A stretch of DNA of 64,000 bases from Solirubrobacteraceae bacterium (GTDB lineage Bacteria; Actinomycetota; Thermoleophilia; Solirubrobacterales; Solirubrobacteraceae). The stretch is from contig JAJCYD010000043.1 in assembly GCA_029263125.1 (NCBI GenBank), forward strand, positions 62,001 through 126,000, in the 5' to 3' direction. Below the pieces are notes generated by a model. That model saw only the letters and a program-made list of their open reading frames with translations, was not told the origin of the DNA and did no database searches. Of this stretch, positions 36,450-36,564 are shown piece by piece (position 1 is the first letter of the stretch; every line of letters starts with the position of its first letter). The translations under genes and the position numbers were made by a program.

Positions 36450-36532
36450 CGGCCGTCGTGACTGGCGTTCGAGGTGGGGATCACCACCGGGAAGCGACGG
36501 AGCAGCGCCCTGCCGCACGCCTGGGCATCAGT
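36450..36532 (+). promoter_or_regulatory. ZTP (pfl-type) riboswitch upstream of serC
   Basis: The RNA contains the class hallmarks in order: GUGACUGGCG, GUGGGGAUCACCACCGGGAA followed by GCGACGG, a short variable stem, then ACGCCUGGGCA. CCGUCG (about 36453) pairs with CGACGG (about 36495) as P1, and GUGG pairs with CCAC inside it. A likely -10 box, TACACT at 36440-36445, places transcription start at the aptamer. GAGGA at 36552-36556 is the serC ribosome-binding site. ZTP riboswitches sense the folate-stress alarmone ZTP and control one-carbon and purine genes. Confidence 0.85.
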
Positions 36533-36564
36533 CCTGATCACGCCCCGTTGCGAGGACCTCTGCC

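Follow-up and report, generated by a model that had tools for sequence, protein, structure and literature searches.

The serC-serA locus and its aptamer

The sequence analysed here, referred to as the window, is a stretch of 64,000 nucleotides (nt) from a Solirubrobacteraceae bacterium (assembly GCA_029263125.1, contig JAJCYD010000043.1, positions 62,001 to 126,000), in which a ZMP/ZTP riboswitch aptamer precedes the serine biosynthesis genes serC and serA on the plus strand. The aptamer matches Rfam family RF01750 (ZMP/ZTP, pfl) at 36448..36533 over its full length (model positions 1-86 of 86), and its score, 59.9 bits, is well above the gathering threshold of 39. Scanning the window with all Rfam families gives an E value of 3.3e-07 and scanning the genome one of 4.6e-9, low enough that chance is no serious explanation, and this is the sole RF01750 copy in the source genome (3.75 Mb, 53 contigs). 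The first gene, serC (36565..37692), encodes a phosphoserine transaminase of 375 amino acids (TIGR01366, 615 bits, cut-off 402). It is followed by the phosphoglycerate dehydrogenase gene serA (37692..39320; TIGR01327, 563 bits, cut-off 454), which overlaps serC by one base, its ATG sharing that base with the serC stop (TGATG). The aptamer ends 31 nt before serC, placing it in the 5' leader of a one-carbon-related gene as is characteristic of the class. A ZTP/pfl-type riboswitch ahead of serC-serA had been proposed from the sequence alone, and the profile matches confirm both the RNA and the genes. The span given in that original prediction, 36450-36556, covers the aptamer but overruns its end near 36533 and takes in the Shine-Dalgarno sequence of serC, GAGGA (36552..36556).

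The architecture of the class can be followed throughout the window copy, with P1, P2, and P3 assigned from the RF01750 alignment and family covariation. The 5' strand of P1 (36450..36459) pairs with the 3' strand at 36494..36503, although the outer pairs are weak. The ACUGGCG core string (36461-36467) contains the GGCG strand of the pseudoknot (36464..36467), whose partner CGCC (36518-36521) is held in the loop of P3. The P2 hairpin (36474..36487) joins GUGG (36474-36477) to CCAC (36484-36487), and the P3 hairpin (36510..36528) joins CUGCC (36510-36514) to GGCAU (36524-36528). All three core strings named in the original prediction, ACUGGCG, GUGGGGAUCACCACCGGGAA, and GCCUGGGCA, are present on the plus strand. 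The P1 and P2 pairing it described is also possible, except that a few outer P1 pairs are non-standard. A few outer pairs of P3 are likewise non-standard, while the remaining P1, P2, and P3 pairs can form, as can the GGCG/CGCC pseudoknot. The segment from 36529..36564 is a putative translational expression platform without a terminator, its switching geometry being presumed. The window element is almost certainly a ZTP-class aptamer belonging to serC-serA.

Among relatives, the aptamer found before serC is supported by covariation. The alignment comprises 78 of the 83 serC aptamers found in the family (77 distinct), leaving out L139, which contains Ns, and L115, L126, L133, and L138, which exceed 100 nt. 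The proposed P1, P2, P3, and pseudoknot pairs form in 85.8% of its cells. Changes on both sides are seen in 12 of 25 pairs, compared with 7.3 in shuffles, and the covariation score is 0.164 versus 0.107 shuffled, with 0 of 500 shuffles as high and a slid pairing reaching at most 0.086. These double-sided changes involve 9 of the 12 pairs of the P1 helix, a total in which its two inner pairs are counted, and 2 of the 4 pairs of P2. The P3 core hardly varies, and the two outer P3 pairs of the Rfam model are not formed in 72-73 of 77 relatives. In total 28 columns are invariant across the 78 aligned aptamers. The pseudoknot does not change in any of the 77 distinct rows, and this constancy alone speaks neither for nor against pairing.

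Distribution within Solirubrobacteraceae

RF01750 is present in 96 of 146 genomes of the family, at 140 places. The next gene, assigned by tblastn at every place, is serC in 83 cases, glyA in 51, and serA in four, with two places left without an assigned gene: L021, where no gene is recognised, and L039, where only 65 nt of downstream sequence exist. Naming based on open reading frames had left five loci as an odd remainder, of which tblastn assigned four to glyA and left L021 without a gene. The 83 serC-linked aptamers come from 83 genomes, the source genome included. Copies before both a serine synthesis gene and glyA occur in 42 of the 96 genomes, before a serine synthesis gene only in 45, and before glyA only in nine. 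A search with the window SerC finds serC itself in 121 of the 146 genomes, some of them cut at contig ends. The serC link is a clade-wide arrangement and no accident.

Two further arrangements were observed in the family. Genus g12 carries the aptamer before serA and not serC (L070, L077, L098, and L135 in G053, G050, G052, and G051), and in these four genomes serC lies on other contigs. The L021 locus of G095 is a third, orphan RF01750 copy of 61.7 bits with no recognised gene behind it.

The presence of the core upstream of serC in close relatives, on which the original prediction had been staked, is seen in four of the six other genomes of the same genus as well as across the 83 family genomes. 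All of these same-genus copies (the source genome, G012, G015, G016, and G017) stand before serC. The glyA gene of the source genome has no RF01750 match, and no remnant aptamer was found before it with lax Rfam filters. The same filters found no remnant before serC in G013 and G014, the two same-genus genomes with no RF01750 match, nor in G130 or G131; the G013 stretch begins inside serC at a contig end and is uninformative on the presence of an aptamer. In G014, serC is present without the aptamer, ~45 nt behind ilvC. This genome retains a CAGACCTTCACCCGC...GGACGTCTGCCCATG stretch similar to that found behind the aptamer in G017, and judged from the sequences it is an apparent case of clean aptamer loss. 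With the aptamer gone and the remaining leader retained, G014 offers a natural comparison.

The expression platform

The leaders of the family were compared for their mode of control. A ZTP riboswitch acting through transcription, by intrinsic or Rho-dependent termination, is an unlikely account of the locus. One predicted fold of the window does disrupt P3 through a GGGCAUCAG..CUGAUCACGCCC hairpin, but no terminator-like site is found in 36300-36620, and no T-run longer than four occurs between P3 and the start codon in any of 130 leaders (81 serC, 49 glyA). The distance from P3 to the start codon is 24-52 nt in serC leaders (median 35) and 21-46 nt in glyA leaders (median 32). This geometry was taken from 134 of the 138 assigned leaders, dropping L027 (no start call) and L139, L047, and L128 (no exact P3 string).

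The 3' strand of P3, UGGGCA, is able to base-pair to a (U)GCCC(A) stretch adjoining the start codon so that the Shine-Dalgarno sequence is enclosed, most clearly in the glyA leaders L054 and L032. Freeing UGGGCA raises the predicted cost of opening the Shine-Dalgarno sequence by a mean of 1.48 kcal/mol in serC leaders, compared with 0.11 when shuffled. A rise larger than the control is seen for 67 of the 80 serC leaders and for 16 of 16 genera; this set holds 80 of the 81 serC leaders, one having no usable Shine-Dalgarno sequence, and 49 glyA leaders. In minimum free energy (MFE) folds, 51 of 81 serC leaders and 36 of 49 glyA leaders have at least three of the six UGGGCA bases paired near the start, whereas the maxima over 40 rounds of shuffling are 47 and 34, respectively, with a serC mean of 39.3. 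The absence of terminators together with this family-wide tendency of the P3 3' strand to pair around the Shine-Dalgarno sequence suggests a translational ON switch.

Several results weigh against this view. The effect is weaker in glyA leaders, where the opening cost rises by 0.99 versus 0.39 shuffled and does so in 31 of 49 leaders and 7 of 10 genera. In the window leader the opening cost is 4.93 with UGGGCA and 5.49 without it, values in which the modelled switch is not seen, and the MFE fold varies with the length of sequence folded. Two of the five same-genus leaders (L001 and L087) display no rise. A coevolution scan of aptamer segments against the downstream stretch, comparing cognate with non-cognate pairing in 79 serC and 48 glyA leaders and omitting those with a repeated downstream stretch, gave no clear signal in 30 comparisons (best z -2.09). 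Leader-level p-values are also overstated because the leaders are related by descent. Lastly, the sequence immediately ahead of the window leader yielded no promoter-like site, and the leader may therefore be transcribed by read-through from farther upstream. Weighing the window-leader results with the family-wide evidence, translational ON control is favoured for the family, leaving aside the exact hairpin of the window copy. Whether the modelled hairpin between the P3 3' strand and the Shine-Dalgarno region would be the switch itself could go either way. A fixed-segment duplex test, which was set aside, returned differences that varied with the genus.

Proposed mechanism

The locus is best explained by a ZMP/ZTP riboswitch that lies within the leader of the serC-serA operon and acts as a translational ON switch, with a probability of roughly 0.8. 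A shortage of 10-formyl-tetrahydrofolate (10-formyl-THF) causes 5-aminoimidazole-4-carboxamide ribonucleotide (AICAR, ZMP) and ZTP to accumulate. Serine is the main one-carbon donor of the cell and is used by GlyA as the substrate for charging THF. In the proposed mechanism, for which we infer the ligand, the ON direction, and translational control, binding of ZMP or ZTP to the aptamer would hold both P3 and the pseudoknot in place. Without ligand, UGGGCA would pair around the Shine-Dalgarno sequence and start codon; ligand-stabilised P3 would take UGGGCA away and the ribosome-binding site would open. Expression of serC would then increase, as would that of serA via the overlapping start codon. 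Higher expression of both genes is proposed to draw 3-phosphoglycerate into serine. That ZTP raises serC-serA expression is highly probable.

It is very improbable that the aptamer has drifted to another ligand, as a ZTP-riboswitch variant sensing a signal of, for example, the serine or glycine pathway. The serC-serA target is unusual for the class and would fit such a change, but the RF01750 core is retained, with the invariant columns and unchanged pseudoknot described above, and 42 of the 96 genomes carry this motif before glyA, the classic target, as well. Still less credible is that the element is a remnant without function or regulates something besides serC: G014 keeps serC without the aptamer, so that the aptamer is dispensable there, but the element precedes serC in 83 genomes with short spacing to the start codon and with covariation.

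The wider implication of the ZMP/ZTP switch is that the reach of the ZTP alarmone would be extended family-wide from the use of serine, through glyA, to its making. Serine synthesis in the family is accordingly predicted to rise under antifolate stress. In the fullest form of the proposal, Solirubrobacteraceae would have rewired ZTP to one-carbon supply as a regulon of serC-serA, which makes serine, and glyA, which spends it, operating through a translational hairpin between the P3 3' strand and the ribosome-binding site. Some lineages, including the genus of the window, would carry only the serine synthesis copy, and one same-genus genome would have lost the aptamer and kept the stretch that follows. 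The odds on this composite account are even.

Reach beyond the family

Outside the family the link with serC becomes rare and the customary targets of the class reappear. RF01750 precedes serC in 10 of 80 named SerC relatives, comprising seven metagenome-assembled genomes (MAGs) of Solirubrobacterales or Solirubrobacteraceae, the culturable Solirubrobacter phytolaccae KCTC 29190, and two MAGs titled Actinobacteria or Actinomycetota. Among the same 80 it was not found before serC in L145 (a Solirubrobacteraceae MAG), in L156 and L220 (loosely titled MAGs), or in any of the mycobacterial, pseudonocardial, and other actinomycete relatives.

A class-level search finds RF01750 in 82 of 349 genomes. 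Of the 30 places that lie outside the family, one precedes serC (G254, same order), nine glyA, five purH-like genes, 13 a 2Fe-2S/FAD oxidoreductase, and one a tungstate-binding protein, with nothing recognised at the last. At phylum level RF01750 is present in 44 of 396 genomes. None of the 33 places outside the class precedes serC; 18 precede glyA, five folD-like genes, and two purH-like genes directly, with purH-like as a later gene in five more. The rest are an oxidoreductase, a ModE-like/tungstate pair, and a phosphoglycerate-dehydrogenase-like gene (L298, 36.8 bits, below the cut-off), one of each. The purH, folD, oxidoreductase, ModE, and tungstate names are read from the sequences and are not database-assigned; the glyA name also began as such a reading, with one query protein then used throughout. 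These target counts mark serC as a speciality of Solirubrobacteraceae and near kin.

Two of the other target groups are of separate interest. The oxidoreductase-linked copies comprise L230-L239 and L241-L243 (13 places in one family of the class) and L276 elsewhere in the phylum; the enzyme perhaps takes part in formate or CO2-linked one-carbon supply. At L262 (G668, 57.4 bits) and L229 (G151, 34.4 bits, below the cut-off), which belong to different families, the aptamer is followed by a T-rich, terminator-like stretch. The genes behind it read as those for a ModE-like regulator and a tungstate-binding protein at L262, and a tungstate-binding protein and a permease at L229, making ZTP control of tungstate uptake possible.

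Other features of the window

Upstream of the riboswitch, ilvC ends at 35491. Between the two lies an open reading frame of nearly 290 amino acids (~35539-36408, plus strand) with no Pfam match. None of the available stretches ahead of 79 other serC aptamers contains a match either, which makes a local insertion likely.

The window also harbours two c-di-AMP riboswitches on the minus strand, at 20777-20926 and 19594-19743 (67.6 and 65.9 bits, cut-off 38). Each precedes a paralogous M23 peptidase gene on that strand, at 19909-20775 and 18751-19545, respectively, and the two pairs are a tandem duplication of riboswitch plus gene.

Comparison with known systems

The window element resembles the RF01750 class in its full-length match above the cut-off, its invariant pseudoknot, and its P1-P3 architecture, and related clades again show glyA, purH-like, and folD-like genes as targets. 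It departs from the class in its serC-serA target and the absence of a terminator. A different RNA, the serC RNA motif, is also described before serC-serA in PMC7266159; the Rfam scan of the window returned only the c-di-AMP and ZMP-ZTP families above cut-offs.

The closest parallel comes from PMC9481103, which describes ZTP/glycine tandems before the serine synthesis entry gene (serA-type) in five Bacillus/Oceanobacillus cases. There the ZTP aptamer is proposed to turn on conversion of 3-phosphoglycerate to serine for the supply of 10-formyl-THF. The tandems share with the window a ZTP aptamer and a serine synthesis target. However, they place a glycine OFF aptamer behind the ZTP aptamer, whereas the window's family has a single aptamer. 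The family further differs in that serC comes first with serA overlapping, in the family-wide extent of the arrangement, and in belonging to another phylum. The glyA ZTP riboswitch of Cupriavidus metallidurans, whose reporter is induced by trimethoprim according to PMC10882993, likewise has ZTP steering serine-derived one-carbon loading, but at the level of serine use and not serine synthesis.

The idea that serine synthesis under ZTP control extends the class, put forward in the original prediction, is supported as a conserved link, but in light of PMC9481103 it is not new in principle. Among the papers listed by the literature searches none concerned a serC association of this kind; their coverage did not extend to the target list of the validation paper, Kim et al. 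2015 (Mol Cell). For a serA-type gene, published work already places serine synthesis under ZTP control, to which the family would add a lineage-specific serC-serA and glyA regulon. Compared with these systems, the arrangement is a known switch in a sensible and not wholly unprecedented use, a tidy extension of a regulon and no new kind of system.
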